The position numbers were made by a program, and so were the translations under genes. DNA of 64,000 bases from Streptomyces sp. NBC_01255 (GTDB lineage: Bacteria; Actinomycetota; Actinomycetes; Streptomycetales; Streptomycetaceae). Shown piece by piece: positions 2,529 through 19,627 of the stretch. The first letter of the stretch is position 1. Each line of letters starts with the position of its first letter. Location: assembly GCF_036226445.1 (NCBI RefSeq), contig NZ_CP108474.1:7502001-7566000 (forward strand), read 5' to 3'. The notes below the pieces were generated by a model that was not told the DNA's origin, ran no database searches, and worked only from the letters and a program-made list of their open reading frames with translations.

Positions 2529-3436
2529 TGGGTGCATCGGAGACGTCCACGCCTCGCGGCGCCGTCACGGTCGACGGCAGGGAACTCTCGCCAGCCGTGG
2601 TGATCCTGAGCGGCGTCGTGGGCGGCATCAGCCTCGCCGTGGGCGCCCTGCTCGCCCTCGCGAGCCTGGCCGGCCACGCGGCGGGCGCCTGGGTGTCCCC
2701 GGCGCCACTCAGTCCCGGTCTCCTCGGAGCCGCCATGGCGGGGGTCGCGCCCGCGCTGTTCACCGTCGGCCGGGCCCGCGTCTGGGAGGAGACGCGGTGC
2801 CTCGTCCTGCCGCTCGCGATCGTCCTCGTCGGCCTCTTCACGGTGAGCCTGCTGAACGGCGGCACCCTCCAGGCCGTCCACGGCGGCCCCCTGTTCCTCG
2901 CCCTGTTCAGCCTCGGCTGGGTCGCCACCCTCGGGCTGCTCGCACTCGCCGCCGTCGCCTGCCTCGCCGCCCAGTACCGCAGGCCCGCCCCGCCGTCCGG
3001 GGCCGAGCGTCCGCGCGTCGTACCGCTGCCCGGCTGGTCGAAGCCGCTGCTCGCGGTCCTCGGCTCCGGGTGGCTCGGCATCGGCGCGGGCCTGCTCGCC
3101 TTCCCCGCCTTCTGGGGCCCCCTCGTGCCGTGGACGGTGAACCGCGCCGACGCGCAGGGCCTCGGCGTGTGGGCGCTGGCGCTCGGCGTCGGCGTCCTCG
3201 GCTCCCTCGTCGAGGACGACCTGGCGCGGATCCGCCCGGCCCTCACGGCCGTCCCGGCGGTGGCACTCGCGACCGCCGTCGTCCTCGCCGTCCACGCCCG
3301 CGCCGTCGACTGGACGTCGGGCCCGGGCGTCGCGCTCCTCGCCCTCGTCGCCGGCCTGTTCACGACCGGAGCCGCGGGCCGCCTGCTCCTGTCGAGGGCC
3401 GGTGCCGGTGCCGGTGCCGACAGTGGGACCGCGTAG
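2528..3436 (+). CDS. Hypothetical membrane protein, about eight helices
   Basis: A 302-residue protein that I do not recognise. It has roughly eight hydrophobic stretches, a short soluble N-terminus, a loop near residues 155-175 rich in Pro and Arg, and ends in an Ala-Gly repeat tail coded by reiterated GCCGGT units (about 3400-3425). Its start overlaps the stop of the DUF2306 gene by one base, so the two products are probably made together and may form one membrane complex. No catalytic motif or cofactor site is visible. Confidence 0.7.
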   Translation: MGASETSTPRGAVTVDGRELSPAVVILSGVVGGISLAVGALLALASLAGHAAGAWVSPAPLSPGLLGAAMAGVAPALFTVGRARVWEETRCLVLPLAIVLVGLFTVSLLNGGTLQAVHGGPLFLALFSLGWVATLGLLALAAVACLAAQYRRPAPPSGAERPRVVPLPGWSKPLLAVLGSGWLGIGAGLLAFPAFWGPLVPWTVNRADAQGLGVWALALGVGVLGSLVEDDLARIRPALTAVPAVALATAVVLAVHARAVDWTSGPGVALLALVAGLFTTGAAGRLLLSRAGAGAGADSGTA

Positions 3437-4321: not shown

Positions 4322-4708
4322 ATGACCATCGAATGGCGTTACACGGTTCAGCAGGAGCTGGGCGTGCTGTCCCTGGCCGGGTTCCTCGGTGCCGACGCCC
4401 TCGGGCGTTTCACCGGCGCCGTGGGCTGGGCGGTGGCGCGCGGTACGGGCCCGGTCGTCCTCGACCTGAGCCGGCTCCGCGGCTGGTCCGCGGGCGGGCA
4501 GCTCGCCGTCTCGGAGGCCGCCCACCGGCTCCGGGCCGCGGGCCGGAGCCTCGAACTCGCCGCGATCCCCACCGACGGCGCCCTCGTCCCCGCGGGCGAC
4601 GGCCCGGCGATCCCGGTCCACTGCGATCTGGACGCGGCGTTCGCCGCCCACCTCGACGCGGGCGCGGAACAGCGCGCCTGGCGCAGCGACGCGTGGCCGA
4701 GCGAGTGA
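4322..4708 (+). CDS. STAS-like protein lacking the phosphoacceptor motif
   Basis: A 128-residue protein whose strand-helix pattern resembles STAS antagonists (LSLAGFLGADAL then PVVLDLSRLRGWSAGG). The loop that normally reads Asp-Ser-Ser/Thr-Gly is Gly-Trp-Ser-Ala-Gly-Gly at 54-59, so regulation by the usual phosphorylation is doubtful. It could be an always-active antagonist or an unrelated alpha/beta protein. The start has AGGGAA about 12 nt upstream. Single-gene unit; the ArsR gene follows after about 110 bp. Confidence 0.65.
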   Translation: MTIEWRYTVQQELGVLSLAGFLGADALGRFTGAVGWAVARGTGPVVLDLSRLRGWSAGGQLAVSEAAHRLRAAGRSLELAAIPTDGALVPAGDGPAIPVHCDLDAAFAAHLDAGAEQRAWRSDAWPSE

Positions 4709-5155: not shown

Positions 5156-5320
5156 GGCCTGTCCGGCGGATCATGGCCGGGGCCCTGGCGTCTGGCACGG
5201 CACCTCGCCGCGTTGCCGAAACCCCCGAATAGCTCCGCTATTAGTGCGCTCCGGCGCCTTGCGATGCACCGCACCAGACGCCGCGACCTATCCGACCCTG
5301 ATCCGCCGGACAGGCCCTAG
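5152..5320. mobile_element. MITE-like element, 169 bp, no transposase
   Basis: The element starts and ends with CTAG (5152-5155 and 5317-5320). Inside these are perfect 18-bp inverted repeats, GGCCTGTCCGGCGGATCA at 5156-5173 and its complement at 5299-5316. Imperfect inner arms (GGCGTCTGG.. near 5190 and ..CCAGACGCC near 5275) and a small central hairpin (AATAGC/GCTATT) make most of it foldable. It is too short for a transposase, so any movement would need one acting in trans. CTAG could be a 4-bp target duplication or part of the repeat. It sits exactly between two convergent genes. Confidence 0.8.
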
Positions 5321-5856
5321 GACTTGTCCGGCACCTGCTCCGGCTGGATGCCCGCGAGCAGGTTGAAGGCCCCGGTCAGCAGGTTGAGCGTGACCACCCC
5401 GACCACCTCCGCGATCACCCGGTCGCTCCAGCCGTGCGCCCGTACCTCGGCGACGTCGTCGTCGGAGAGGGAGCCCGGCTCCGCGAGGACCCGGAGCGCG
5501 AGGCCGATGAGCGCGGCCTCGCGCGGATCGGTCGACGTGCCCTGGCGGGCCAGTTCGATGTCGGTCTCGCTCAGGCCCGCCGCGCGCCCGGCCGAGCGGT
5601 GCGCCTCGCGGCACGTTCCGCAGCCGATCCACTCCTGTACGGCGAGCGACAGCTTCTCGCTGAGGGCGCGGGGGATCTTCACCCGCTTCATGGCCCGGGA
5701 CAGGCTCAGATAGCCGTCGAGCAGCGCGGGCGAATGCGCCATCGTCGACACCATCTCGCCGACCGAGCCGTGCCGTTCGACGATGTCGGTGAGCACCTCG
5801 CGCGCCCGGCCGGGCGCCTGCTCGGGGGTGAGCGCGGTCAGTCTTCTCGTGGTCAC
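5317..5856 (-). CDS. AhpD-like / carboxymuconolactone decarboxylase-family protein
   Basis: A 179-residue all-helical protein. The AhpD-type redox site is visible: Glu75, Cys79-Gly-Thr-Cys82 and His86 in the stretch QEWIGCGTCREAHR. Members act as alkylhydroperoxidases or related thiol oxidoreductases in the cytoplasm. GTG 5856 is preceded by GAGGAG. The stop codon TAG lies in the terminal CTAG of the MITE-like element, so insertion set the C-terminus (..VPDKS). The leader contains a perfect 15-bp palindrome covering the ribosome binding site, suggesting metal- or redox-linked control. Peroxidase activity is inference from the Cys pair. Confidence 0.8.
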   Translation of the reverse strand: MTTRRLTALTPEQAPGRAREVLTDIVERHGSVGEMVSTMAHSPALLDGYLSLSRAMKRVKIPRALSEKLSLAVQEWIGCGTCREAHRSAGRAAGLSETDIELARQGTSTDPREAALIGLALRVLAEPGSLSDDDVAEVRAHGWSDRVIAEVVGVVTLNLLTGAFNLLAGIQPEQVPDKS

Positions 5857-5861
5857 AGAGC

Positions 5862-5896
5862 CTCCTCGTTATACCCGTGGGGGGTATAACGAGGAG
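5862..5896. promoter_or_regulatory. Perfect palindrome over the AhpD-like gene ribosome binding site
   Basis: CTCCTCGTTATACCC (5862-5876) is followed by a 5-nt spacer (GTGGG) and its exact complement (5882-5896). The core TATACCC..GGGTATA resembles operators bound by CsoR-type copper sensors, as I recall them. In minus-strand mRNA the arm next to the start codon contains GAGGAG, so the hairpin would hide the ribosome binding site. It also lies 24 bp past the P450 stop, so it could terminate the biosynthetic operon. Operator, RNA switch and terminator are all possible. Confidence 0.65.
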
Positions 5897-5919: not shown

Positions 5920-7212
5920 TCAGCGGGGCCAGGACAGCGTCAGGCGGGACGGCCCGTGGAACACCCAGTCGGGGGCGTACTCCACCTCGACGCCCGGCCG
6001 CGCGCCGGCGGCGAGCGCGGGCAGACGGTCGAGCAGGACACCGAGACCGATCTCGGCCTCCGCGCGCGCGAGCGCCGCCCCCGCGCAGTAGTGGATGCCC
6101 AGACCGAAGGCGCAGTGGCGGCCGCTGTCCCGGTGGATGTCGAGGACCTCGGGATCCGGGAAGTGGTCCGGGTCCCGGTGGGCCGACCCCAGGACCAACT
6201 GGAGGCGGTCGCCCCGCCGGACGGTCCGGCCCGCAAGCTCCGCGTCCCGGTGCGCCCACCGGGTCACCATCTGCACGGGCGGGTCGTGCCGCAGGAACTC
6301 GTCCACGGCGTTCGGCAACAGCCCCGGATCGGCGCGAAGTTCGTCCCCCACCTCCGGCCGCGCGAGCAGTGCGAGGACCGCCTTGCCGATCAGCCCCGTC
6401 GTCGTCTCGTGCCCGGCGGTCAGCAGATGCGTACAGGTCGCCGCCAGCTCCTCCCCGCTCAGGGACGGATCCTCGGCCCCGGCCCGCGCCAGCGCCGAGA
6501 GGAGGTCCCCGCGGTCCTCGGCCCGCCGCCCCGCCAGCTCCCGGTGGAAGTACCCGTCCAGCTCCGCCGCCGCTCGCTCGGCGCCGTCCAGCGCGGCCGG
6601 AGTCCGGTCGCCCCGGGTCCCGCCCGCCTGCTGGAGCGCCAGCGCCTGCTCGCGGAACCACGGCCACCGCTCGGCCTCCACCCCGAGCAGACCGCCGATG
6701 ACCAGCAGCGGATACGGGGCCGCGAACCCCTCGACGAGCTCCACGACCGACCGCCGCGCGAGCGGCGCGACGAGCTCCTCCGCGATCTCCCGTACGCGCG
6801 GACGCAGCGCCGCCACCGCGGCGGCCCCGAGCGGCGGCGCCACCTGTGCGCGCAACCTTGTGTGCCGGGGCGGGTCGAGGAAGACGAGCCAGTTCTCGAC
6901 GACCCGCCGCAGCGTGACGTACCCGTCCGGGACCGGCGCGGCCCGTGCCGTCAGCGGGGACGCCCGGCGGAAGTTCCGCCCCGTCAGGACCTGCGCCACC
7001 TCCGCGTGGCCGAAGAGGTACCAGGTCGTGGGCGCCTCCCCGCCGTGTTCGTCCCGCCCGCCTCGCACGGCGTGCACGGGGTCCGTCTCGCGGTAGCGCC
7101 GGTAGACGGGGTAGGGGTCGGCCAGATCGAGCCGCGCCGGGTCGAAGGGTTCCGGCGGCCCGCCCTCTCCCGTACGGGACCCGCCCGTCCGCCCAGGCGT
7201 CTGCCCGCTCAT
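5920..7212 (-). CDS. Cytochrome P450, RebP/StaP position of a bisindole operon
   Basis: A 430-residue soluble bacterial P450. The I-helix motif AGHETT (LLTAGHETTTGLI) and the haem loop FGLGIHYCAG, with Cys376 as the iron ligand, are intact. It needs a ferredoxin and reductase, which are not encoded nearby. ATG 7212 overlaps the stop of the upstream monooxygenase (ATGA). In rebeccamycin and staurosporine clusters the P450 at this place couples the two indole rings of chromopyrrolic acid. I infer a similar aryl-coupling step here from the O-D-C-P gene order; an ordinary hydroxylase cannot be excluded. Confidence 0.85.
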   Translation of the reverse strand: MSGQTPGRTGGSRTGEGGPPEPFDPARLDLADPYPVYRRYRETDPVHAVRGGRDEHGGEAPTTWYLFGHAEVAQVLTGRNFRRASPLTARAAPVPDGYVTLRRVVENWLVFLDPPRHTRLRAQVAPPLGAAAVAALRPRVREIAEELVAPLARRSVVELVEGFAAPYPLLVIGGLLGVEAERWPWFREQALALQQAGGTRGDRTPAALDGAERAAAELDGYFHRELAGRRAEDRGDLLSALARAGAEDPSLSGEELAATCTHLLTAGHETTTGLIGKAVLALLARPEVGDELRADPGLLPNAVDEFLRHDPPVQMVTRWAHRDAELAGRTVRRGDRLQLVLGSAHRDPDHFPDPEVLDIHRDSGRHCAFGLGIHYCAGAALARAEAEIGLGVLLDRLPALAAGARPGVEVEYAPDWVFHGPSRLTLSWPR

Positions 7213-8933
7213 CCGCCCGCCCCGCGCACCAGATCCGCGACCCGCAGCGGATCGGCCGGCGGGACGGCCCCGCGCCACGCCACGTGCCCGTCCGGGCGCA
7301 CCAGGACGAACGGCCGCTCGTACCGCCGTGCCACCCGCGGGTCGCGACAGTGCCGTACGCGGAGGGGGACCCCGCGGTCGGCGAAGGCGCGGACCAGACC
7401 GTCGGGAGTCCCGGCTCCGGCGTCGAAGCGCTCGAAGCAGAGGAGGACGAACTCCCCGCCGAACAGGTCGAGCGTCGACCGGCCGGGCCCGAGCCACGCG
7501 TGCGGAGCCCGTACCCCGGGAAGCGTCGTACGGTTCCAGACCGGCCCGTCAGGCATGCCAGAGCCCTCCCGCCCGTCCGGCATGTCCGAGCCCTCCGGCC
7601 CGTCCGAGCCGTCCGATCCCTCCGGCCCGACGGCGTCGGGCGGCGGGTCCGTCCTCCCCTTCTCGTCCGCGATCACCGCGGACGCGTACCGGTGCGCGAA
7701 GTGCAGGTCGGGCGCGTCGAACTCCCTGAGCGGATCGGAGTCCGCGATCTCCCGGCCCAGTGCGGCGCGGGCCCGCTCCCCGTCCTCCGTCCCGTCGCGC
7801 AGCGCGCCGGACAGCCGGCGGTCGACGGTCCGCCGCAGGTTGCGGTGGCTCTCCTCCAGGCTGTTGACGGCGATCGGCCGCCGTTCGCTCTCGTACGTGT
7901 CGAGCAGCCCGGCCCCGGCCCAGCCCGCCAGCTCCGCCGCCAGCTTCCAGCCGAGACCGGCCGCGTCGCCCACGCCCGTCGCGAGCCCGAGCCCGCCCGA
8001 GGGCGACAGGGTGTGCGCCGCGTCCCCGGCGAGGAAGACCCGCCCGTCGCGATACCGCGAGGCCACCCGATGGGTCAGGTGCCAGGTGGTGTCCGACAGC
8101 ACCTCGACCCGCACGGCGAGCGCGATCGCCCGCCGCACGACCCGCTCGGCGTCCGCGGGCCCGGCCGGACACGTCAGCCGGTACAGCTCCCGGCCGTCCA
8201 TCGCCCGCAGTGGATAGCGCAGCCCGCCGGGCTCGGTGACGAAGTGGACGAGTGCCGCGCGCGGCCCGAGCAGGGATCCGAGCCCGGGGGCCCGGAAGAG
8301 GATGTTGCGCAGGGTCCGGGTGCGGTGCCGCTCGGGCGCCTCGATCCCGCAGGCCTTGCGCACGGGCGACGAGGCCCCGTCGCAGCCCACCAGGTACCGG
8401 GCGTGCACCGTCGTCCGCACCCCCGCCCCGTCCACGAGGGCAACGCGCACCCGGTCGGGCTTCCGGGTGAGCCCGACCATGCGCGTGCCGAGCCGGACCG
8501 GTCCCGCGGGCCGGACCCCCAGGCGGGCGGTGAGCAGCGGAGCCAGCCAGTGCTGCGGGCAGATCGCCTCGGGCTCCGGCGTGTACGAGGGCAGGGGCCG
8601 TTCACCGGCCGTGCCGAGCCGCAGCCGGTGCAGCTCGTACTCGCCGACGGCGGTCACCCACGCGATGTCCAGCGTGTGGTCCGCCGGCCAGCCCGCGCCC
8701 CGGATCGCGTCCGCGACGCCCCAGCGCCGGAACTCCTCCATGGCGCGCGGGCCGACGGTGGAGACCCTCGGGTGCGTGACCCGGCCGTCCCCGGCCTCCA
8801 CCAGGACGAAGTCCACGCCCCGGTGGGTGAGGTCGAGGGCGAGCGCGAGCCCCACGGGACCGCCGCCCACGATCAGTACCTCGGTCTCCTCGGTCTCCTC
8901 GGTCCTCCGACCGGTCCTCCTGCTGTCCGTCAC
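7209..8933 (-). CDS. FAD-dependent aromatic monooxygenase, RebC/StaC position
   Basis: A 574-residue flavoprotein of the p-hydroxybenzoate hydroxylase/phenol hydroxylase family. It has the N-terminal dinucleotide fold (VLIVGGGPVGLALALDL, about residues 19-35), the second FAD motif FLAGDAAHTLSPSGGLGLATG, and a C-terminal thioredoxin-like domain. RebC and StaC, which set the oxidation state of the indolocarbazole core, belong to this family. A Gly/Ser/Pro-rich insert with reiterated Met-Pro-Asp-Gly lies before the C-terminal domain (7550-7640). The GTG start is 4 nt after the dimer-synthase stop and its stop overlaps the P450 start. RebC-like function is inferred from position. Confidence 0.82.
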   Translation of the reverse strand: MTDSRRTGRRTEETEETEVLIVGGGPVGLALALDLTHRGVDFVLVEAGDGRVTHPRVSTVGPRAMEEFRRWGVADAIRGAGWPADHTLDIAWVTAVGEYELHRLRLGTAGERPLPSYTPEPEAICPQHWLAPLLTARLGVRPAGPVRLGTRMVGLTRKPDRVRVALVDGAGVRTTVHARYLVGCDGASSPVRKACGIEAPERHRTRTLRNILFRAPGLGSLLGPRAALVHFVTEPGGLRYPLRAMDGRELYRLTCPAGPADAERVVRRAIALAVRVEVLSDTTWHLTHRVASRYRDGRVFLAGDAAHTLSPSGGLGLATGVGDAAGLGWKLAAELAGWAGAGLLDTYESERRPIAVNSLEESHRNLRRTVDRRLSGALRDGTEDGERARAALGREIADSDPLREFDAPDLHFAHRYASAVIADEKGRTDPPPDAVGPEGSDGSDGPEGSDMPDGREGSGMPDGPVWNRTTLPGVRAPHAWLGPGRSTLDLFGGEFVLLCFERFDAGAGTPDGLVRAFADRGVPLRVRHCRDPRVARRYERPFVLVRPDGHVAWRGAVPPADPLRVADLVRGAGG

Positions 8934-8937
8934 GGCC

Positions 8938-11900
8938 TCAGCTCCTCCCCTCGTGTGCGAAGCGCTCCGCGTACCAGGTCATCAACTCCGGCACCCTGTC
9001 CGGCACGCCCTCGCACTCCCGGGCCATCACCGCGAGATGGCGGAAGCGCATCGCGAACCCGCGCCGGGCCACGTCGGGCCGCGCGATGTACGCGGGCGGC
9101 TCCTCCAGCTCGAAGGAGGGCCCGGCCGTCCGCCCCCGCCACCCCGACTCCATCGGCATCAACTGCTCGGCCAGCGGGCGCATCATCCCCGTCATCACGT
9201 CGATGGCGGCGTTCATCAGCTTCGAGCGGCGCAGGCTCGCGTCCGGGCTCTCCCCGAAGTGCTGCACGATCAGCTGGAGCATCATGAAGTAGCAGCGGTT
9301 GAAGAGCCGCATCACCTGCCGCGCGTGCGGATCGCTCACCGCCGCCCGCCCGGGGTGCCCGGGGTCGAGCGTCGGATTGCGCAGCGACGGGTACGCCGGG
9401 TGCCACGGCGCGCCCTCGCCGTGCGGCCCGTCGGCGCGTTCCGTCATCAGCAGCTCGGCGAGGCGGACGAACGTGTCGTGGTGGGACTCGGAGCCGGCCT
9501 TCTCGGTGTCGAGGACGCCGCCCTCGCCCTGCTCGGTCACGAAGTCGACGGCGAACAGCGCGCTCGACAGGTCGTCCACCTCCAACTGGTAGTCCGGATG
9601 CACGGCGTTGACCGTGCCGCCGATGAAGAGGTGGTGCTCGCCCCCGCCGCGCCCCCGGTCGACCGGGAACAGGTCGGGGACCCGGGTCAGGCCCTCCCGG
9701 ATGCCCGCGTACAACTCGCTGGGCGAGCCGAACGGGCCGGGTCCGGGTCCGTCCTTGGCCCCGGCCCCGGCGCCACCCGCGAGCCGCTCGGGCCGCTCGA
9801 TGGCGATGAACCGCTGGAGACTGCCCAGGTGCAGCGGTTCGAGCGCGAAGTCCAGCGGCAGCGGCAGCCTGCCCGGCGTCCCGAAGTCGACCTCCGGGAC
9901 GTGGAACGGCTCGCCCATCGCCATCAGGATGTTGTTGACGACCAGGAAGTGCATCATCTCCTCACGGGCCACGTCGAAGAGGCTGTCCCTGACGCCCTTG
10001 GCCAGGCTCTCCCCGCCGTCCCCGCACGCCAGCCGCAGCTGGCGCGGAGTCCACACCCCGCTGCGGACGTACTCGAACCCGGTGCCGTGCGTCGGCACCG
10101 AGTACCCGGCGAAGAGGTACTGGAGCGAGGTGGCGAGCTCCACCGTGACGGCCTGCCAGAGCGCCGACCGCAGCTGGGCCCGGGTGGTGATCTGCGGATA
10201 CGAGCGGACCGGTGACGGGACGGCGGCCGGGGGCACGGCCGCCGCCGTGCTCTGCGCGCGCAGGTACTTCAGGAGCAGCCGCGCCTTGGGCAGGGACAGG
10301 TCACGGGTCGGCGGCATGTAGTACGTCCGGTCCTTGTTCGCCGGATCGCACATCTGCCAGATGAGCTTCGCGTACGTCTCCACCTTGCAGCGGTCCGCCA
10401 GGCTGAACACCTCGTCGCGCATGAACGGGAACAGCTGCTCGTAGTACGCGAACACCTCGCGGTGCAGCAGCTCGAACGTCACGTCCTGCTGCAGGACGGC
10501 GTCCAGCTGCCAGTCGTCGGGCAGGACGCGGACGGCGGCGGAGCCCGCCCAGGGCCAGAAGCCGAGGGCGTCCCCGTGGTCGTAGCAGGCCTCGGCGGAG
10601 CCCGGGGCGGCCGGATCGTGGGGCGGCAGATCCTCGGGACCGGCCGCGAGCAGCAGCCGTGCCGTGCCGGCCCGCGCCCCGGAGACGGTGAACCGGCCGC
10701 GTCCGTGCGCGTCCGTGGCGAAGCCGCACCAGGAAGCTCCGTCGCGACCGGAACCCTCCCCGACGAGCGGCTTCCCGCCGGAGGTCCGGCCGGCCCGGAG
10801 CCGTACGATCTCGACGTCCCCGCAGCGGGCCGTCGGGGCCGCGGCCACCGGATCCAGCGGCAGGGCCCGGGGGTTGGGGAACTGCCGGACGACGACCTCG
10901 TCGAGAGCGGCCGGAACACCCCGCACGAAGGTCCGCACCGGGACCTCGACCGCGTGCTCCTCGCCGCGCTCCGGGTCCGGATGCTCCAGGATCAGGCAGG
11001 CCTCGTCGGTCAGGACGACGGCCTCGCGCTCCCGCAGCAGCACCGTGCGGGTGCCCTCGCCGTCCGCCGCCGGGCGCACCAGGACGAGTCCTTCCTCCGC
11101 GGCCCGCCGTGCCGCTTCCGCCGATGCGGCCGGTACGGTCACCACCTCGCCTCCCGCGGTGGCTCCGGCCGGCAGCACGGCGACCGGCAGATCCGAGCGG
11201 GCGGTCCGCAACTCCAGGGCGGCACCCCCGCCCCCGTGCGCGAAGGGCCGGTTGAACGCCACCGTGGCCGTCTCCGGGGAGACCCGTACGGTGCACGGAC
11301 CGGGGGCCTCGTCCGTACGGGATTCCTTCTCGCACGGGACGAGCAACCGCCCCGCCGGATGCGTGCGCGGCTCGTCCGGCCGCCAGGGCGCGATGGTGCC
11401 CCGCAGCCGCCACACCCCCGGCGCGTCCTCCGGGTCCCGTACGCCCTCCGCGGCCGGCTGCTCCAGGGCGAACTGGACGACGATCCCGCCGCCTTCACCC
11501 TCCTCCACGGCGGCCCGCAGGGCGCGGACGGCGGGGGAGTCCGCCGCCGAGGCAGGCCAGTCGAGCCCCTCCCAGGCGCCGATCGCGAACTGGTGGAGTG
11601 TCCGGCGCACCGGCGTGAAGCCGTGCCACCGGGGCGGCATGAAGCCGCCCACGTCCCCCACGCACAGGTATCCCGCGTCGTGCGAGCGGCCCTCCCGCCC
11701 GAACGCGAACTGGCCGCCCATCAGGGTCGTCGTCCACGTGGAGGCGGGATCGACGTCGAAGACCCGGGCCCGGTTCACCGTCGTGCCCAGATACGGGTTG
11801 TAGTGGCCCCACATGTCGACGGCCCGCCCGACGACCGGATCGTCCGTCTCGACGGCCCCGGCCACCCGCTCCGCCCCGGTCACCCGGGCGTCCAGGACGA

Positions 11901-12141
11901 GATGGCCGTTCCCGGAGAAGTGCCCACCGCGGGCGCCGTGCTCCGCGAGGTGCTCGTGGTACGCCTCGGCGGGCCCGTCCTCCCCGAACGGGCCCACGGC
12001 CGCGGGGCGTTCGGCCCCGGCCTCCGCACCTCGCAGGGCGGTGTTGCGCGCCAGGTCCACGAGTCCGCCGCGCGGGCCCGTGGGCAGCCGTGTCACGGCG
12101 GTCCCGCCGAAGTACAGACGGGGAAGGTCGAACACGCTCAT
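8938..12141 (-). CDS. Chromopyrrolate synthase / iminophenylpyruvate dimer synthase-like (RebD, StaD, VioB family)
   Basis: A 1067-residue protein, close to the length of RebD, StaD and VioB (about 1000-1100). The N-terminus FDLPRLYFGGTAV and the C-terminal ferritin-like part, with ELATSLQYLFAGYSVP and REEMMHFLVVNNILMAMGEP (about residues 690-740), are hallmarks of the family, which oxidatively couples two imine-pyruvates made from Trp. With the neighbouring oxidase it should build a chromopyrrolic acid-type dimer. ATG 12141 overlaps the oxidase stop (ATGA). It is the signature gene of the cluster. The substrate could be Trp or another aromatic amino acid; the sequence alone does not decide. 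Confidence 0.87.
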   Translation of the reverse strand: MSVFDLPRLYFGGTAVTRLPTGPRGGLVDLARNTALRGAEAGAERPAAVGPFGEDGPAEAYHEHLAEHGARGGHFSGNGHLVLDARVTGAERVAGAVETDDPVVGRAVDMWGHYNPYLGTTVNRARVFDVDPASTWTTTLMGGQFAFGREGRSHDAGYLCVGDVGGFMPPRWHGFTPVRRTLHQFAIGAWEGLDWPASAADSPAVRALRAAVEEGEGGGIVVQFALEQPAAEGVRDPEDAPGVWRLRGTIAPWRPDEPRTHPAGRLLVPCEKESRTDEAPGPCTVRVSPETATVAFNRPFAHGGGGAALELRTARSDLPVAVLPAGATAGGEVVTVPAASAEAARRAAEEGLVLVRPAADGEGTRTVLLREREAVVLTDEACLILEHPDPERGEEHAVEVPVRTFVRGVPAALDEVVVRQFPNPRALPLDPVAAAPTARCGDVEIVRLRAGRTSGGKPLVGEGSGRDGASWCGFATDAHGRGRFTVSGARAGTARLLLAAGPEDLPPHDPAAPGSAEACYDHGDALGFWPWAGSAAVRVLPDDWQLDAVLQQDVTFELLHREVFAYYEQLFPFMRDEVFSLADRCKVETYAKLIWQMCDPANKDRTYYMPPTRDLSLPKARLLLKYLRAQSTAAAVPPAAVPSPVRSYPQITTRAQLRSALWQAVTVELATSLQYLFAGYSVPTHGTGFEYVRSGVWTPRQLRLACGDGGESLAKGVRDSLFDVAREEMMHFLVVNNILMAMGEPFHVPEVDFGTPGRLPLPLDFALEPLHLGSLQRFIAIERPERLAGGAGAGAKDGPGPGPFGSPSELYAGIREGLTRVPDLFPVDRGRGGGEHHLFIGGTVNAVHPDYQLEVDDLSSALFAVDFVTEQGEGGVLDTEKAGSESHHDTFVRLAELLMTERADGPHGEGAPWHPAYPSLRNPTLDPGHPGRAAVSDPHARQVMRLFNRCYFMMLQLIVQHFGESPDASLRRSKLMNAAIDVMTGMMRPLAEQLMPMESGWRGRTAGPSFELEEPPAYIARPDVARRGFAMRFRHLAVMARECEGVPDRVPELMTWYAERFAHEGRS

Positions 12142-13793
12142 GCCGCCTCCAGTCCGGCCCGCGGCGCCACGCCCCGGCCCGGCGCGTGCCGGGCGATCAG
12201 GTCCACGGCCTCGAGGGCCGACTCGACCGCCCCCTCGATCCACGCGGGCTCGGTCGCGCAGTGCTCCCCGGCGAAGAACATCCGGCGCTGCGGCCGCACG
12301 GCCCGCCCGCGCTGCTCCTCGCAGGCGGCGGCGTCCTGCCCCCAGCGGATGGTGCAGCCCCCCTCCGTCCACGGATGCTCGCCCCACGCGAGGCTGGCGA
12401 CGCCCCGCACCATCCCGCGCCGCAGCAGCTGCGGATGCATCCGGCCCAGCTCCTCGACGACCGTCCGGTGCCGGAGCGGCGGAGGCATCCGGCCGAGGTG
12501 GTCGGCGTCCTCGCCGATCGTGTAGCTGGCGAGGAGGGCCGCGCCCTGCGCCGGATCCGTGGCCCCGTCGGCCACGGCCCCGTCGTCCGCCGAGGGCGGG
12601 TAGTACGTCTGCCGGATGCGGCCTCCGCTGAAGGAGGCGCCGCCCCGGATCCCCTCGCGCTCCCAGAACGGCTCGCGGCAGTGCACCGCCACCTTCGTCG
12701 CCGGGCAGTAGTCCACCTCCCGCACGACCGCGAGCTTGTCCTCGTCGAAGCCGGTCAGCGTGAGGCCCCGCAGCACGGAGAACGGCACGGTGCACAGCAC
12801 GTAGTCGCAGCGCCGCACGGTCGCTCCCGGCCCGCCCCCGATCCGTACGAGGACGTGGTCGGCGGCCACCTCGAAGCCCGACACCCGCTGCCCGAACCAG
12901 ATGGGGCCGCGCACGCGGGCTGCGAGCCGTTGCACGAGCTGGTCCATGCCGCAGGCGAGCCGCACCAGTTCGGGACTGGTCTCGGTGAGGATGTCGTCGA
13001 GGAAGCTGTTGAGGCGGGTGCCGCAGCCGGACCGGATCCCCGGGTGGGCGGCGAACAGACCGTGCACGTCGATCCGGTCCTTCGCGTGGCCGAGAAGGTG
13101 CGGGGACACGTCGACCTCCTCGACCAGATCGAGGAGGTTGCGCGCGAGATCGGCGCGGAGCCCCGCCCGCAGCGCCGGCGGCGCCACCGCGTCGACCACG
13201 GCCGCGAGCCACGCGCCGAACACCACGGTCTCCTCGCGGTAGTCGGCACCCGGCAGCGAGGCGCGGACGTCGGCGATCAGCGCGCGGGGGGCGTCCCGCA
13301 GCCGGACGTGGCCGGTGCTGGTCGCCAGAAAGGCGTTCTCCTCGGACAGCAGGGTGGTGAACGGGCGGACCTGGTCGGCGAGGCCGAGGTGCTCGACGTA
13401 GCGCATCGTGCGGTGGTGCGCGGTCGGGATGCGCATCGCGCCGAGCTCCACGAACGGCGCGCCCTCGGATGCGCCGAACCGGTGCGTGTGGACGCGGCCT
13501 CCGAGCCTGCGGCTGCCCTCGATGACCTCGACGCGGAACCCGAGCCGCTCCAGCTCGTACGCGGCGACCAGACCGGCCATCCCCGCGCCCACGACGCTGA
13601 CCGTGCTGTTGGCGCGGGTGCGGCGGCGGGCGCGCGGCAGGAGCTGCTGAACGTGGCCGGGCCGTGTGACGGCGGCGGGCTGCGGCGTGGTGGTGGCCTG
13701 CGGCACTGCGCCGGCCTGCGGCACTGCGCCGGCCTGTGGCCCGGTGGCGGGCTGCGTCACTGCGGTGGTCTGCGTGACGGGTGCGGTCTGCAT
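12138..13793 (-). CDS. FAD-dependent L-amino-acid oxidase-like (RebO/StaO/VioA role)
   Basis: A 551-residue flavin amine oxidase. It has the dinucleotide fold VSVVGAGMAGLVAAYELE (about residues 65-82), the GG-doublet motif RRLGGRVHTHRFG, the ELGAMRIP segment seen in RebO/VioA-type oxidases and the C-terminal FAD motif MFFAGEHCATEPAWIEGAVESA. It would turn an aromatic amino acid into its imine-pyruvate with release of peroxide. The first 60 residues are a low-complexity Thr/Gln/Ala/Pro extension with repeated Gln-Ala-Gly-Ala-Val-Pro, absent from typical members. ATG 13793 follows GAGGGGGAG. Tryptophan as substrate is inferred from the adjacent RebD-like gene. Confidence 0.87.
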   Translation of the reverse strand: MQTAPVTQTTAVTQPATGPQAGAVPQAGAVPQATTTPQPAAVTRPGHVQQLLPRARRRTRANSTVSVVGAGMAGLVAAYELERLGFRVEVIEGSRRLGGRVHTHRFGASEGAPFVELGAMRIPTAHHRTMRYVEHLGLADQVRPFTTLLSEENAFLATSTGHVRLRDAPRALIADVRASLPGADYREETVVFGAWLAAVVDAVAPPALRAGLRADLARNLLDLVEEVDVSPHLLGHAKDRIDVHGLFAAHPGIRSGCGTRLNSFLDDILTETSPELVRLACGMDQLVQRLAARVRGPIWFGQRVSGFEVAADHVLVRIGGGPGATVRRCDYVLCTVPFSVLRGLTLTGFDEDKLAVVREVDYCPATKVAVHCREPFWEREGIRGGASFSGGRIRQTYYPPSADDGAVADGATDPAQGAALLASYTIGEDADHLGRMPPPLRHRTVVEELGRMHPQLLRRGMVRGVASLAWGEHPWTEGGCTIRWGQDAAACEEQRGRAVRPQRRMFFAGEHCATEPAWIEGAVESALEAVDLIARHAPGRGVAPRAGLEAA

Positions 13794-13815
13794 GACGGTC
13801 CGACTCCCCCTCGAA

Positions 13816-15525
13816 TCAGTGCGGACGGTGCGGGTGGTGCTCCTGGGGCTGCCGGACGGGTATCCGGCCCTCGACGGTGAGCGCCGCGAGGTAGGAGCGG
13901 ATCAGGGCGGTACGGGCCAGCGGGGCGACCAGACCGACGTATCCGTCGGGCCGGACGAGCCGCAGGTCGTCGGGGTGACCGAGCCGCCGCGCCTCGGCGG
14001 CGTCCCAGGGCGTCACCGGGAGGACGCGGACCGGGGCCGGGAACCCGTCGCAGGCCTCCCGCAGGGCGTCGAGCACGCAGGCGTCGGCGCGGGCGGCGTG
14101 CAGGACCAGCGTCCACCGTTCGTACCCGAGCAGCGTGTGCAGCCGGACGGCCGCGCCGCCGCCCCCGGCAGAGCCGGTGGTGAGGGCGACGTCCGGCATC
14201 CGGTCGCCCGCGCGCGGACCGGCGCGGTGACCGCGGCCGGGACGGTGCCGGGACAGCGAGCTGTCCCTGTGGTTCCGGCCCAGGTCGCTCAGCCGCAGGT
14301 CCAGCCGGCGCTGAACACCGCGCCGGGCGAGGGCCGCGGGCACGGTGGCGGTGAACGCCCGGTAGCCGAGCGGCGGGAGCGGCAGCTCCATGAAGTTGAA
14401 CCGCATCTCGCGGATGTACCGGACCGCGAGGAGCCGTTGCTCGTCGCTGTACGTGTCGAGGAGCTCCTCGCCCGCCTGCCCGCGGTGCACGGCGGCCAGC
14501 TTCCAGGCGAGGTTGTGGGCGCCGAGGATGCCGACGTTCATGCCGTGGCCGCCGACCGGCGCCCAGGCGTGCGCCGCGTCCCCGGCGAGCAGCCCGCGCC
14601 CCGAGCGGAGCCGGGCGGCGACCCGGTCGCTGAAGCGGGCCCGGTTGAGCCAGAGGTGCTCGGTGGGCTCCAGGCGCAGACCGGGCATCAAGGCGGTCTC
14701 CGCGACCAGGTCCCGGAGTTCGCCGATCGTGGGGGCGGCGGTCAGCGTGGGGTCGGGGTCGTCGCGGAAGCAGAAGAAGCGGAAGCCCCCGCCGGGCAGC
14801 GGGAAGACGAGCAGAGAGCGGTGCGGAGCCAGGAAGATGTGGCCCCTGCCGGGCTCCTCGCCGAGCTGCCAGGTCGGGTGGGCGTTGCCCTGGACGACCT
14901 GGAGGCCCGTGCGGCGGCGCCCCTCGAAGGGGATGCCCAGCCGGTCCCTGACCACGCTGGCGGTTCCCTCGCAGCCGACGATCCACGGGGCGGCCGCGGA
15001 CTCCACCGTGCCGTCCCCGTGCCGCAGGGTGAACTCGGCCCGGTCGTCGTGCACCTTGACGTCCGTCAGCTCCGTGTTCCACTCGACCCGGGTGCCGAGC
15101 CGGGCAAGATCCTCGGAGAGGAGGCGCTCGATGTCGTGCTGCTCGATGTTGAGGGGCCGGGCGCGGGCCGACCGCGTCCAGCCGGTGACGAGTTCGCCGA
15201 GGGCCCGGTCACGGGCGTGGACGGTCACCGCGTCCAGCTCCACCCCGTGGCGCCCGAGCGTCTCGCCGACCCCCAGGGCGTCGAGCGCCTCCCGGGCCCG
15301 CGCCCACAGCACCAGGGCCCGCGCCTCACGCTTGGTGGCGGGCGCCTTGTCGACGATCCGGACGCGGAGCCCGAGCCGGCGCAGACCGATGGCCAGGGTG
15401 AGGCCGACCGGGCCCGCCCCGACCACGCACACGTCCACGTCGCCGACGCCTTCATCGGCCGTCTCCCCGCCGACGTTTCCGTCCTTGCCCGTGTCCAATC
15501 GGGTCACCCCCCGCTCTCCGCTCAC
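13816..15525 (-). CDS. FAD-dependent aromatic monooxygenase, first gene of the bisindole operon
   Basis: A 569-residue p-hydroxybenzoate hydroxylase-family flavoprotein. Motifs: CVVGAGPVGLTLAIGL (about residues 34-49), the DG region, LLAGDAAHAWAPVGGHGMNVG as second FAD site, and a C-terminal thioredoxin-like domain. It differs clearly from the other monooxygenase of the operon, so this is not a recent duplication. It takes the place of the glycosyltransferase that precedes rebO in the rebeccamycin cluster. A late hydroxylation or ring rearrangement, as in indolotryptoline pathways, is possible. GTG 15507 with a nearer GGAGAG is an alternative start. It lies 22 bp before the oxidase. Confidence 0.82.
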   Translation of the reverse strand: MSGERGVTRLDTGKDGNVGGETADEGVGDVDVCVVGAGPVGLTLAIGLRRLGLRVRIVDKAPATKREARALVLWARAREALDALGVGETLGRHGVELDAVTVHARDRALGELVTGWTRSARARPLNIEQHDIERLLSEDLARLGTRVEWNTELTDVKVHDDRAEFTLRHGDGTVESAAAPWIVGCEGTASVVRDRLGIPFEGRRRTGLQVVQGNAHPTWQLGEEPGRGHIFLAPHRSLLVFPLPGGGFRFFCFRDDPDPTLTAAPTIGELRDLVAETALMPGLRLEPTEHLWLNRARFSDRVAARLRSGRGLLAGDAAHAWAPVGGHGMNVGILGAHNLAWKLAAVHRGQAGEELLDTYSDEQRLLAVRYIREMRFNFMELPLPPLGYRAFTATVPAALARRGVQRRLDLRLSDLGRNHRDSSLSRHRPGRGHRAGPRAGDRMPDVALTTGSAGGGGAAVRLHTLLGYERWTLVLHAARADACVLDALREACDGFPAPVRVLPVTPWDAAEARRLGHPDDLRLVRPDGYVGLVAPLARTALIRSYLAALTVEGRIPVRQPQEHHPHRPH

Positions 15526-15810
15526 CGTTCCCGGTGTTCAGCGTGCTTGCGGAAGATCACCTTCAACAGGGCGTGTACGGGGGCGCGGGGATCACTGCGA
15601 CCTGGGGAGATGACGACCTGTGCATCATCTGGACCGTTTGAGTGACGAATGGTGGGATTCGGCCGTGAGCACCGCTTCGGCGCCCTGGCCCGCCCGTGGA
15701 GGGCCGCCGCGACCTGGCCTGATCGAGACCTTGGGGCGCGGGGTCGTCCTCCCCGAGTTGACAGAGGGACGCCTCCCGGGCCGGGGTACGTGGCCAGTTC
15801 TGGACAGGAG
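15526..15810. promoter_or_regulatory. 285-bp gap holding the promoter of the bisindole operon
   Basis: This gap lies between the first gene of the leftward operon and the end of the MocR gene, which is also leftward. No convincing gene is visible. The operon promoter must lie here, unless transcription runs through from the MocR gene. The stretch 15600-15665 is less GC-rich (GATGACGACCTGTGCATCATC and the TTTGAGTGACGAATGG region), but I see no consensus -35/-10 pair or clear long palindrome. Confidence 0.4.
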
Positions 15811-17340
15811 TCACCCAGCAGGCGAGCGCTCCGCGCACTCCAGAAGCGTGGGAAGGGCCGCCTCCAGGGCCGCCGTGCCGTGGGCGTACGGCAGCCGGAG
15901 CCGGTCCCGGAAGCCGTCCACCGGGGAGAAGGCCGACCCCGGGACGACCGAGACGCCACGGCGACGCGCCAGTTGGGCGAGGGTCTCGGTGTCGGCGCCC
16001 GGGACACGCACCCAGAGGGCGGCGCCGCCCGCCGGCCGGGTCCACTCCCAGTGCGGAGCTCCGGCACGCAACAGCGCCTCGGCCGTGTCCCGTTGGGCCC
16101 GCAACTCGGCCCTGCGCCGGGCCCGGGCCTCGGGCAGCCGGTCGAGCAGCCGGACGGCCACCAGCTGGTCCATGACCGAGCACGACAGGTCGACCGACGT
16201 CTTGATCTTCGCGAGCCGGGCGACCACCTGGGGGGAGGAGCGGACCCACCCCACCCGCAGACCGCCCCAGAAGAGCTTCGAGAGTGTGCCGACGGTCACG
16301 GTCGACGCCATGGGAAGCCCGGCGACAAGGGGCTCCGGAGCGCCGGCGCCCCCGCCCCTGCCTTCGTACCCGTCTCCGCCCCCGCCTTCGTACCCGTCTC
16401 CGCTTCCGTCCCCGTACCCGTCTCCGTCTCCGCCTCCGTCCCCGAGGGCGAGTTCCGCGCAGGCCGTGTCCTCGACGGTGAACAGCTCCAGGTCCTCCAG
16501 GACCCGCCGCCACTCCCTGCGCGCCGCGCCGTCCAGCGTCCGCCCCGTCGGGTTGTGCACCGTCGGCTGGAGGTACACCAGCCGGGGTCGGCCGTGCGCG
16601 CTCAGCCGCCGGACCGCCGCCGCGCCGGAGCCGTCGCCCGCGTCGCTGCCGTCCGCGCCGACCGGTACCAGCCGGGCGCCCCGCGCCCGCAGCGCCTCCA
16701 AGGCGCCCCGATACGTGGGGTCCTCCACGACGACCGTGTCGCCCGGCTCCACGAGCGCCTGCGCCACGAGCCACACCGCCTGCTGCGACCCCGCGGTCAC
16801 CAGGATCTGCCCGGCCTCCGTCGGCACGCCCGCCGCCCGGTAGTACGCGGCGATGCCCTCCCGCAACGCCGGGATGCCGTACGGGTGGTAGCCGTCGGCC
16901 ACCAGGAGCCCGCCGAGGTCGCCCGAGGTCAGCGCCCCCACCGCCTCGCCGACCGCGCCGAGCCCCGGCAGCGCCCCGCTCGACAGATCGGCGACGCCCG
17001 CCGACCCCGTACCCGTACGGGCGTCGAAGCTCACGAGCCGGCCTTCGGCGACGTACCGGTCGAGCGCCCCCGAGCCCCGCAGCCGCGAGCCGCTGCCGCG
17101 CACGCTCTCCAGCCACCCCTCGGCCTCCAGGAGGCCGTACGCGGAGGTGACCGTGGACCGGCTGACGCCCAGGACGAGCGCCAGTTCGCGCTGCGAGGGC
17201 AGCACGGTCCCCGCCGGTACGTCCCCGCGCTCGGCCAGCTCCCGCAGCGCGTCCGCAAGGCGGCGGGGAAGTGGCCCCGGCCCCTCCGAGGACCAGCCGG
17301 TGAGCAGTCGGGACAAACGGGGCGAAGCAATCCTGGCCAT
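15811..17340 (-). CDS. MocR/PdxR-type regulator: GntR winged helix fused to aminotransferase fold
   Basis: A 509-residue protein. Residues about 20-90 are a GntR winged helix (RELAERGDVPAGTVLPSQRE, then GVSRSTVTSAYGLLEAEGWL). The rest is a fold-type I aminotransferase domain with HNPTG and the PLP-lysine region TVGTLSKLFWGGLRVGWV. MocR regulators use PLP or its aldimines as signal. A Gly/Asp/Tyr repeat insert (16350-16450) lies before the PLP lysine. Divergent from the UPF0261 gene across 135 bp, which it probably controls. ATG 17340 follows GGGAGCC. Confidence 0.87.
   Translation of the reverse strand: MARIASPRLSRLLTGWSSEGPGPLPRRLADALRELAERGDVPAGTVLPSQRELALVLGVSRSTVTSAYGLLEAEGWLESVRGSGSRLRGSGALDRYVAEGRLVSFDARTGTGSAGVADLSSGALPGLGAVGEAVGALTSGDLGGLLVADGYHPYGIPALREGIAAYYRAAGVPTEAGQILVTAGSQQAVWLVAQALVEPGDTVVVEDPTYRGALEALRARGARLVPVGADGSDAGDGSGAAAVRRLSAHGRPRLVYLQPTVHNPTGRTLDGAARREWRRVLEDLELFTVEDTACAELALGDGGGDGDGYGDGSGDGYEGGGGDGYEGRGGGAGAPEPLVAGLPMASTVTVGTLSKLFWGGLRVGWVRSSPQVVARLAKIKTSVDLSCSVMDQLVAVRLLDRLPEARARRRAELRAQRDTAEALLRAGAPHWEWTRPAGGAALWVRVPGADTETLAQLARRRGVSVVPGSAFSPVDGFRDRLRLPYAHGTAALEAALPTLLECAERSPAG
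16350..16450 (-). repeat. In-frame Gly-Asp-Gly-Tyr repeat in the MocR gene
   Basis: Reiterated units of the type TCCGTACCCGTCTCC, on the plus strand, encode Gly-Asp-Gly-Tyr and Gly-Tyr-Glu-Gly runs in the reverse frame. The insert has about 30 residues in a surface loop of the aminotransferase domain and is absent from the ordinary family pattern. Replication slippage is the likely source. Confidence 0.7.
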
Positions 17341-17475
17341 GGCTCCCATAGTGCGCCACGACGCAGGCCAATACGCCCGGAGTGGTCGTTGTCGCCACAG
17401 GTCGCGCGACGGAGGATCGACGAGAACGGGACCGGACCGCGGTACCGGACGCGGGACCGGGAGAGAGGTGGGGGC

Positions 17476-18738
17476 ATGGCGACCGTCGTGCTGGTCGGGA
17501 CGCTGGACACCAAGGGGGAGGAGTACGCCTGGCTGCGGGAGCGGCTCAGGGAGTACGGCAGTGACGTCCTCCTCGTCGACACCGGTGTCCTGCCGCCACC
17601 CGCGCACGCGCCCGTGCCCGATGTCTCCGCCGACGTCGTCGCGCGCGCCGCCGGCCACGACCTGGCCAGGCTGCTGGCCGCCGGAGACCGGGGCGCCGCC
17701 GTCGCCGCGATGGCGCACGGCCTCACCCGCGTCGTCCTCGACCTCTACCGCAAGGGGAAGCTGCACGCCGTGCTCGCCGCGGCCGGCAGCGGCGGCTCCA
17801 CGATCGCCGCCCAGGCGATGCGGGCCCTGCCCATCGGCGTACCGAAGGTGCTGGTCAGCACCATGGCCGGCGGGGACGTCTCCCCGTACGTCGACAGCAG
17901 CGACCTCACCATGATGTACAGCGTCGTCGACATCTCCGGTCTCAACGCCGTCTCCTGCCAGGTCCTCGGCAACGCCGCCGCGGCCGCCGCGGGGATGGCC
18001 CGCCGTCACGAGCGGAATCACGACGAGCCGGCGGGCCGGGGGCGCCCGGTCGTCGCCGCCACCATGTTCGGCGTGACGACCCCCGCCGTCGACGCGGCCC
18101 GCGCCCGGCTCGCCGAACTGGGCTACGAGGTCCTCGTCTTCCACGCCACCGGCGCGGGCGGCCGGGCGGTCGAGAAGCTCGCGAGGGACGGCATGCTCGA
18201 CGGGGTACTGGACCTGACGACGACCGAGCTCGCCGACGAGCTGGTCGGCGGCGTGCTCAGCGCCGGCCCCGCCCGCCTCACCGCCGCCGGGGCCATGGGC
18301 ATCCCGCAGGTCGTCGCCCCCGGAGCCCTCGACATGGTCAACTTCGGCCCGGCCGCCACCGTGCCGGAACGGTTCAGCGAGCGCCGGCTGCTCATCCACA
18401 ACGCGACGGTGACCCTCATGCGCACCACCGCCGCCGAAATGGCCGAGCTCGGCACCACGATGGGCCGCAAGCTCCGTACCGCGCGCGGCCCCGCCGAGGT
18501 CTTCTGGCCGCTGCGCGGCATCTCCGCCGTGGACACGCTCGACGGCCCCTTCGCCGACCCCGAGGCGGACCGGGCCGGGCTCGACGCCCTGCGTGCGGCC
18601 GTCCGGGGCGGCGAGGTCCGCGTCCACGAGCTCGACGCGCACGTCAACGACACCTCCTTCGCGGTCGCCATGGCCGACCGCCTGCATCAGCTGATCGCCG
18701 AGAGCAGCCGCGGCGGGCAGGACCACGGAACGGCCTGA
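17476..18738 (+). CDS. UPF0261 / Tm-1-like ATP-binding domain protein
   Basis: A 420-residue protein matching the UPF0261 family, which equals the N-terminal half of the tomato Tm-1 protein. It starts [19 protein letters not shown], has the Gly-rich loop [21 protein letters not shown] (about residues 96-116) and [17 protein letters not shown], and ends in the second alpha/beta half ([22 protein letters not shown]). The bacterial function is not known; ATP binding has been described for the plant domain. GAGAGGTGGGGGC precedes ATG 17476. The partner TIM-barrel gene follows after 46 bp. Confidence 0.85.
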
Positions 18739-18784
18739 GGACACCGGGCACCGAACGACACCCACACACCGAGGAGCCACCACC

Positions 18785-19627
18785 GTGAACACCGGATCCA
18801 CCGTCAGCCGCCAGGCCGTCGTCGCCCGGCTGCGCGCCCAGGTCGCCGCCCGCCGGCCGATCGTCGGCGCCGGGGCGGGCACCGGGCTCTCCGCCAAGTG
18901 CGCAGAGGCCGGCGGGGTCGACCTGCTGATCATCTACAACTCGGGCCGCTACCGGATGGCCGGCCGCGGTTCGCTCGCCGGTCTCCTGCCGTACGGGGAC
19001 GCCAACGCGATCGTCCAGGACATGGCCCGCGAGGTGCTGCCCGTGGTCCGCGACACCCCCGTCCTCGCCGGGGTCTGCGGCACCGACCCGTTCCGCCGCA
19101 TGGACCTCTTCCTGGACGAGCTGAAGGCCATGGGCTTCGCGGGCGTGCAGAACTTCCCCACGGTCGGCCTGTACGACGGCACCTTCCGCGTCAACCTGGA
19201 GGAGACCGGCATGGGGTACGGCCTGGAGGTCGACATGGTCCGGGCCGCCCACGAGCGGGACCTGCTCACCGCCCCGTACGTCTTCGATCCGCAGCAGGCG
19301 GCCGACATGGCCGCGGCGGGCGCCGACGTCCTCGTGCCCCACGTGGGGCTCACGACCAAGGGGGCCATCGGCGCGGGCACGGCGATGACGCTCGACCAGG
19401 CGGCCGCGGCGGTCCAGGAGATGCACGACGCGGCCAAGCGCGTGAACCCCGACGTCCTGGTCCTCTGCCACGGAGGGCCCATCGCGGAGCCGGAGGACGC
19501 ACGCTACGTCCTGGAACACACCACCGGGGTCGTCGGCTTCTTCGGGGCCTCGTCGATCGAGCGGCTGCCCACGGAGCGGGCCGTCACGGAGCAGACCCGC
19601 GCCTTCAAGGCCCTCGCTCTCGGCTGA
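18785..19627 (+). CDS. TIM-barrel protein of the phosphoenolpyruvate-hydrolase-like family (Tm-1 C-terminal half)
   Basis: A 280-residue TIM barrel. Recognisable stretches are [21 protein letters not shown] at the start, [23 protein letters not shown], then [15 protein letters not shown] and [17 protein letters not shown] near the end. The family corresponds to the C-terminal half of Tm-1 and resembles phosphoenolpyruvate mutase-fold enzymes. The real reaction is unknown. GTG 18785 has GAGGAG 9 nt upstream. It is the second gene of a two-gene operon with the UPF0261 gene; together they reconstitute the full Tm-1 architecture as two polypeptides. Confidence 0.83.

Follow-up and report, generated by a model that had tools for sequence, protein, structure and literature searches.

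A 64,000-nucleotide stretch of the Streptomyces sp. NBC_01255 genome (hereafter the window; positions 7502001-7566000 on the larger contig of the 8.57-Mb host genome) carries a five-gene operon that is very probably the orthologue of the arcyriaflavin F cluster (acfXODCP) of Streptomyces venezuelae, its predicted product being arcyriaflavin F or a close regioisomer. The operon is real but already known, as an orthologue of a published pathway. A preliminary description of the window had taken the core made by this operon to be undescribed, a claim that falls because arcyriaflavin is the tabulated product of the S. venezuelae cluster and arcyriaflavin F of that species was the subject of a paper in 2024; the candidate can now be assigned to the published pathway and a rediscovery avoided. 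The open reading frame (ORF) listing of the window places all five genes on the minus strand, in the order X-O-D-C-P:

15525-13816, minus strand: X, class A flavin adenine dinucleotide (FAD) monooxygenase, 569 amino acids (Pfam/NCBIfam, family alignment, tree, S. venezuelae-like orthologue at 84.7%, AlphaFold model)
13793-12138, minus strand: O, predicted L-tryptophan oxidase of the RebO/StaO type, 551 amino acids (Pfam, bisindole-O profile at 777 bits)
12141-8938, minus strand: D, predicted chromopyrrolate synthase of the RebD/StaD/VioB type, 1067 amino acids (TIGR04492 at 624 bits, profile, tree)
8933-7209, minus strand: C, FAD enzyme of the RebC/StaC type, belonging to a third residue class, 574 amino acids (PDB match to RebC 2r0c, residue table)
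7212-5920, minus strand: P, cytochrome P450, predicted indolocarbazole synthase of the StaP/RebP type, 430 amino acids (PDB match to StaP 2z3t, profile)

The co-directional arrangement and the junctions first reported for these genes (22 bp between X and O, an ATGA overlap between O and D, 4 nt between D and C and an ATGA overlap between C and P) are borne out by the ORF coordinates and the sequence. FAD_binding_3 and Rng_hyd_C domains occur in both X and C, O belongs to the Amino_oxidase family and P is a cytochrome P450 (Pfam/NCBIfam).

The reactions of O, D, P and C are established for the Reb and Sta enzymes (PMC10851217; PMC10784701), and we infer that the enzymes of this strain act like their relatives. 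O would convert L-tryptophan to indole-3-pyruvate imine and D would couple two of these imines to chromopyrrolic acid. P would join the two indoles oxidatively, closing the six-ring core, and C would channel the unstable dicarboxy-indolocarbazole towards arcyriaflavin A, an imide, thereby setting the oxidation state. X would hydroxylate the indole benzene rings of arcyriaflavin A, yielding arcyriaflavin F or a close regioisomer; its proposed role as an indole-ring hydroxylase, and likewise the positions attacked, are read by analogy from the acf orthologue. That an extra monooxygenase tailors the aglycone, as had been suggested, gains support from this comparison.

The S. venezuelae counterpart

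One genome of the genus, G023 (8,223,505 bases in one contig), holds the same gene set in the same order and direction, at 80-87% identity to the window proteins (X 84.7, O 86.6, D 86.0, C 81.0 and P 80.4%), with an LAL regulator on the X side that is 73.2% identical to that of the window. A G023 gene at 1.058 Mb matches CmlS of PDB 3i3l with full identity over query residues 2-572, and we take the source strain of 3i3l to be S. venezuelae. Halogenase-like matches at 0.535 and 1.058 Mb flank the X-O-D-C-P operon of G023 at 0.873-0.883 Mb. In the gene numbering of S. venezuelae NRRL B-65442, venemycin (RS02305-02380) is followed by 'Indole, Arcyriaflavin' (RS03645-03670) and then by chloramphenicol (RS04425-04505), and arcyriaflavin is tabulated as the putative product of the indole cluster (PMC9769785). 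The position of the G023 operon fits this indole/arcyriaflavin cluster because it falls between the landmark loci as the gene numbers predict. Elsewhere the region is listed as 'Indole (rebeccamycin)', vnz_03615-03695 (PMC12466573), and the S. venezuelae genome paper contains the word arcyriaflavin three times (PMC8788739). The work of Lai et al. (2024) on arcyriaflavin F from S. venezuelae is cited in the reference list of PMC13200232, the only source among the matches listed in which the term 'arcyriaflavin F' occurs. From the CmlS identity and the landmark order together, we infer that G023 is S. venezuelae.

The genes described in the 2024 study are reportedly acfXODCP of S. venezuelae ATCC 10712, and these letters agree with the gene order in the window. 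Arcyriaflavin F is said to have been obtained by expression in Streptomyces coelicolor, AcfX reportedly puts hydroxyls on C-5 and C-5' of arcyriaflavin A, and AcfX is said to be homologous to EspX of erdasporine biosynthesis.

Core enzymes and the residue class of C

All five proteins were recognised by profiles that left out the window's own clade and drew on other clusters only (38 O, 41 D, 25 C, 39 P and 14 X proteins), at 777 bits for O, 1487 for D, 784 for C, 528 for P and 711 for X, in keeping with the initial proposal of a bisindole (indolocarbazole) operon with an O-D-C-P core. Runner-up proteins scored 132 (O), 167 (C) and 220 (X) bits in a comparison set of selected own-genome loci (amine oxidases, FAD monooxygenases and some window genes) rather than the whole proteome; it contained no second P450 or D, so that P and D have no runner-up score. 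Judged by these profiles, the scores of the operon proteins exceed chance. A generic L-amino-acid oxidase was ruled out for O by its 777 bits to the bisindole-oxidase profile, the next-best amine oxidase of the comparison set reaching 132, a comparison in which no RebO reference sequence was used. D matched the VioB model TIGR04492 at 624 bits, short of the equivalog cut-off of 1250, together with a Ferritin-like domain, and had no match to any solved structure in a PDB sequence search. Its placement in a RebD/VioB-type group, also proposed at the outset, is supported by the VioB model and by a tree composed of D relatives only, RebD and VioB reference sequences not being used. A violacein-type pathway was ruled out by the sub-cut-off VioB score (624/1250 bits), the P450 gene and the RebC-like gene. 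The best PDB match of P was StaP (2z3t, 389 bits; next 215).

With an alignment of three D sequences as query, a search of GTDB genome contigs returned 49 loci, whose titles are all actinobacterial, and the whole X-O-D-C-P block is present in six of them, at 78-97% in L014-L018 and 63-75% in L019 (tblastn, window genes). Further copies were found in the genus genomes G023 (L078), G084 (L080) and G276 (L132); L017 and G004 represent one genome. In a quick D tree of 56 rows, which omits L028, L055 and L059 (gene caller), L037 (excluded) and L130-L132 (not added), nine X-O-D-C-P rows (the window, L014-L019, L078 and L080) formed one clade with an SH-aLRT of 100, nested in a larger group with all other X-bearing Streptomyces rows. 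The ratio of non-synonymous to synonymous substitution rates (dN/dS, NG86) was 0.16-0.42 in 43 of 45 pairs (five genes, nine loci); of the remaining two, C of L014 gave 0.53 and P of L080 was invalid, a wrong 95-codon frame having been taken. By these ratios all five genes are under purifying selection. A silent, decaying cluster without a product could find support in the arcyriaflavin row for S. venezuelae, which reads 'ND' for the metabolome and 'None' for the transcriptome under ethanol shock (PMC9769785), but with this selection, frames that are open in the window and a conserved block upstream of X, we consider such decay extremely unlikely.

The oxidation state of the core depends in our proposal on C, whose best PDB match was RebC (2r0c, 599 bits; next different enzyme 164). 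The residue test was defined by the ten aligned positions at which PDB sequences 2r0c (RebC) and 4eip differ, the latter being presumably RebC-10x, a StaC-like variant. RebC-10x is described in PMC10851217. At these positions C of the window reads E-A-G-R-S-Q-V-A-R-T, six of the ten residues being RebC-like (E36, R46, Q117, A231, R239, T241) and four StaC-like (A37, G38, S48, V216). Among 38 C proteins, 16 are A117-V216-N239 (StaC-like), three are Q117-F216-R239 as in RebC, 18 are Q117-V216-R239 and one (L041) is of another type. Absent from this table are the C proteins of L014, L020, L028, L033, L054 and L059, which gene calling left outside the C family, and those of L126, L129 and L130, which were not added (L130 repeats L027). 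Fourteen of the 16 StaC-like proteins sit in loci with families F6 (P450), F7 (glycosyltransferase) and F3 (methyltransferase), each function being judged from one member, in L023. The 18 proteins of the third class, which show an altered loop following position 216, comprise all 16 examined from X-bearing clusters (16/16, window included) and those of L034 and L061; the latter two cut against a tidy association, as X was not found in their fetched flanks despite the third-class C. The residue rule that separates StaC, RebC and this third class is now usable. We note that the C gene of L014 (Streptomyces sp. Root431, about 13224-15027) is read in two frames, by mutation or assembly error.

Arcyriaflavin A is the likelier core, as opposed to K252c, because C of the window keeps Q117, R239 and T241; the residues thus lean towards the imide, a lean rather than a proof. 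The preliminary description had allowed either an arcyriaflavin or a K252c-type aglycone, and the arcyriaflavin alternative stands while K252c is disfavoured. A StaC-like C, with a hydroxylated K252c (a lactam) as the product in place of the imide, would agree with the four of ten RebC-10x positions that are StaC-like in the window, V216 included. However, all 16 proteins with N239 also carry A117 and V241, and C of the window has Q117, R239 and T241 instead of this StaC signature, residues found in 0/16 of the StaC-like proteins, which makes a lactam product quite improbable.

Several points weigh against the assignment of the operon to the arcyriaflavin F pathway. G023 is a presumed S. venezuelae genome, the acf gene names and the C-5/C-5' regiochemistry are as reported for the 2024 study, and orthology was measured against G023 rather than the published acf sequence. 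The proteins of the window and G023 differ at 13-20% of aligned sites, and given this divergence the regiochemistry or the degree of hydroxylation could differ from that of G023. In addition, at the eight positions that separate all 16 StaC-like proteins from RebC, C of the window splits equally, being RebC-like at R46, Q117, R239 and T241 and StaC-like at A37, G38, S48 and V216.

The X family and related clusters

Relatives of X at 43-60% identity occur in bisindole clusters outside the clade of the window. In a tree of 21 X and nine C proteins the two families separate (100/100), by which X as a second RebC was ruled out. The genus was surveyed as a draw of 295 genomes, in which X profile scores show a gap between 587 and 318 bits: X lies above the gap in 11/295 genomes, D is present in 15 and both in 10, and in 10/10 of the last X and D lie inside the same fetched 20 kb. 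By profile score and position X is not a generic monooxygenase but belongs to a family bound to bisindole clusters in this draw. The coupling runs less neatly in the other direction, as X is absent from 5/15 D-bearing genomes, one of these having a partial D match alone. The eleventh X genome, G263 (L129, 9962-14113), has an X gene next to a truncated C, with no match to D in the genome at E <= 1e-50; this locus is apparently the remains of a bisindole cluster.

The gene content around X varies. C-less clusters in Kutzneria and Pseudonocardia (L022, L024, L035, L036, L047, L050) combine O-D-P with an O-methyltransferase family, an assignment checked on the L024 member, and X. In the C-less Streptomyces clusters (L032, S. 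olivoreticuli; L060, S. diacarni; L062, S. alanosinicus), X and a member of an imine-reductase family accompany O-D-P, the imine-reductase-family member of L032 being closest to RedE (464 bits, next 299). Clusters with C and one or two X genes are L025, L027, L055, L079, L081, L082, L130 and L131, L027 and L130 being one genome; two adjacent X genes are found in the O-D-C-P clusters of S. triculaminicus (L027/L130), G026 (L081) and G043 (L082).

The AlphaFold model of X (mean pLDDT, the predicted local distance difference test, 79.8) had its closest folds in MtmOIV, OxyS, BexE and other aromatic polyketide oxygenases (Foldseek), and RebC was not among the best 50 matches listed. The modelled fold fits an aromatic hydroxylase without proving one and does not tell hydroxylation from epoxidation. 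Another possibility is that X is an epoxidase of the AbeX1/ClaX1 type, which would turn arcyriaflavin A into a vicinal diol of the core and leave the operon making an indolotryptoline intermediate. ClaX1 (553 amino acids) is likewise an additional flavin oxygenase that works on this intermediate, with OxyL, SsfO2, MtmOII and TcmG as its closest characterised homologues (PMC3158105), and the model of X, blind to the difference between the two reactions, is also closest to the aromatic polyketide oxygenase group. Against an epoxidase, none of the 15 neighbours scanned (0/15) resembles X2, a methyltransferase or a hydrolase of the indolotryptoline pathway, no halogenase was found, relatives of X occur in C-less clusters beside a RedE-type reductase or an O-methyltransferase, and the S. 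venezuelae-like orthologue indicates arcyriaflavin F. We therefore regard epoxidation as quite improbable and propose that X hydroxylates the indole rings.

Among known systems, rebeccamycin shares the O-D-C-P core order (rebO-rebD-rebC-rebP) and the chemistry to arcyriaflavin A; the window differs in having X, in V216 of C where RebC has F216, and in that no halogenase was found and no glycosyltransferase or methyltransferase among the scanned neighbours. Staurosporine has the O, D, C, P core but a StaC-type C and sugar genes, and cladoniamide/BE-54017 has the same core but differs in X1, X2, methyltransferases, a halogenase and a rearranged product. The erdasporine (esp) cluster encodes the hydroxylase EspX with O, D and P and is not known to have a C; it thus resembles the window in combining an X-type hydroxylase with O, D and P, whereas its product is a carboxy-indolocarbazole. 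The bec cluster of Streptomyces sp. MA37 (becO, D, C, P, R), which makes BE-13793C, has in common with the window the O-D-C-P core, a dihydroxylated arcyriaflavin product and a LuxR-type regulator, but its product is hydroxylated at C-1/C-11. In the account of this cluster in PMC7024260, its authors found no tryptophan hydroxylase gene in or near it. BE-13793C and arcyriaflavins A and E are produced by S. cinnamoneus (PMC12159101).

Candidates for the BE-13793C/arcyriaflavin E hydroxylases are the X genes that occur in pairs in S. triculaminicus, G026 and G043, and the L032, L060 and L062 clusters may make hydroxylated reductasporines. Perhaps, and here we put the chance somewhat below even, the operon represents one branch of a family of bisindole-only indole-ring hydroxylases (X) that evolved with the third RebC/StaC class; sister branches of this family, doubled in some clusters, would then be the missing BE-13793C/arcyriaflavin E hydroxylases, and the clusters pairing X with a RedE-type reductase would yield hydroxylated reductasporines that are new. 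The X family can be mined for regioselective indolocarbazole decoration; midostaurin, an approved anticancer drug, derives from indolocarbazoles (PMC10851217).

Flanking genes and regulation

No glycosyltransferase or methyltransferase was found among 15 neighbouring genes in a Pfam scan, four of which (2597-3436, 4322-4708, 5317-5796 and 24661-26400) have no Pfam family, and Trp_halogenase gave no hit over 26 bits anywhere in the genome. Glycosylation, chlorination and methylation are not indicated, because the neighbours scanned encode no such step and the genome is without such a halogenase match. Three further features lie near the operon:

19761-22919, plus strand: LAL/LuxR regulator (AAA_16 and GerE, Pfam), 1052 amino acids, candidate pathway regulator
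15526-15654, minus strand: apparently non-coding stretch, some 130 bp long, upstream of X (conservation by eye in a 10-locus alignment, no statistic)
5317-5856, minus strand: small gene downstream of P, AhpD/carboxymuconolactone-decarboxylase-like by eye (the 159-amino-acid version, 5317-5796, has no Pfam match)

Large regulators are present in the cladoniamide and rebeccamycin clusters too (ClaR, 981 amino acids; RebR, 923 amino acids; PMC3158105). In L016 and L132 a relative of the LAL gene is the divergent neighbour of X, at a distance of about 0.5 kb; in L078 it is also divergent and the distance is 1.7 kb. The link between LAL and operon is not without blemish: the 1.7-kb gap of L078 contains open frames that could hide a gene, and neither in L019 nor in L080 was a LAL gene found next to X. 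Genes of the MocR, UPF0261 and PEP_hydrolase-like types (window 15811-19627) separate the LAL gene from the operon in the window and likewise in L014, L015, L017 and L018; this set of genes was not found in L016, L078 or L132, and it distinguishes the window from the acf/G023 arrangement. The block upstream of X, aligned from the window, L014-L019, L078, L080 and L132, is possibly a promoter or regulator site. An RNA element was sought there and no Rfam match was found within window positions 1-30000.

The small gene downstream of P is possibly a sixth gene of the operon, though its own operator-like repeat precedes it. It is present in L014, L015, L017, L018, L080 and L132 and was not found in L016, L019 or L078/L092, so that G023 differs from the window here as well. 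The repeat, a 15-bp inverted repeat CTCCTCGTTATACCC-N5-GGGTATAACGAGGAG at window 5862-5896, also occurs in L014, L015, L018 and L132, and L080 has a changed version of it.

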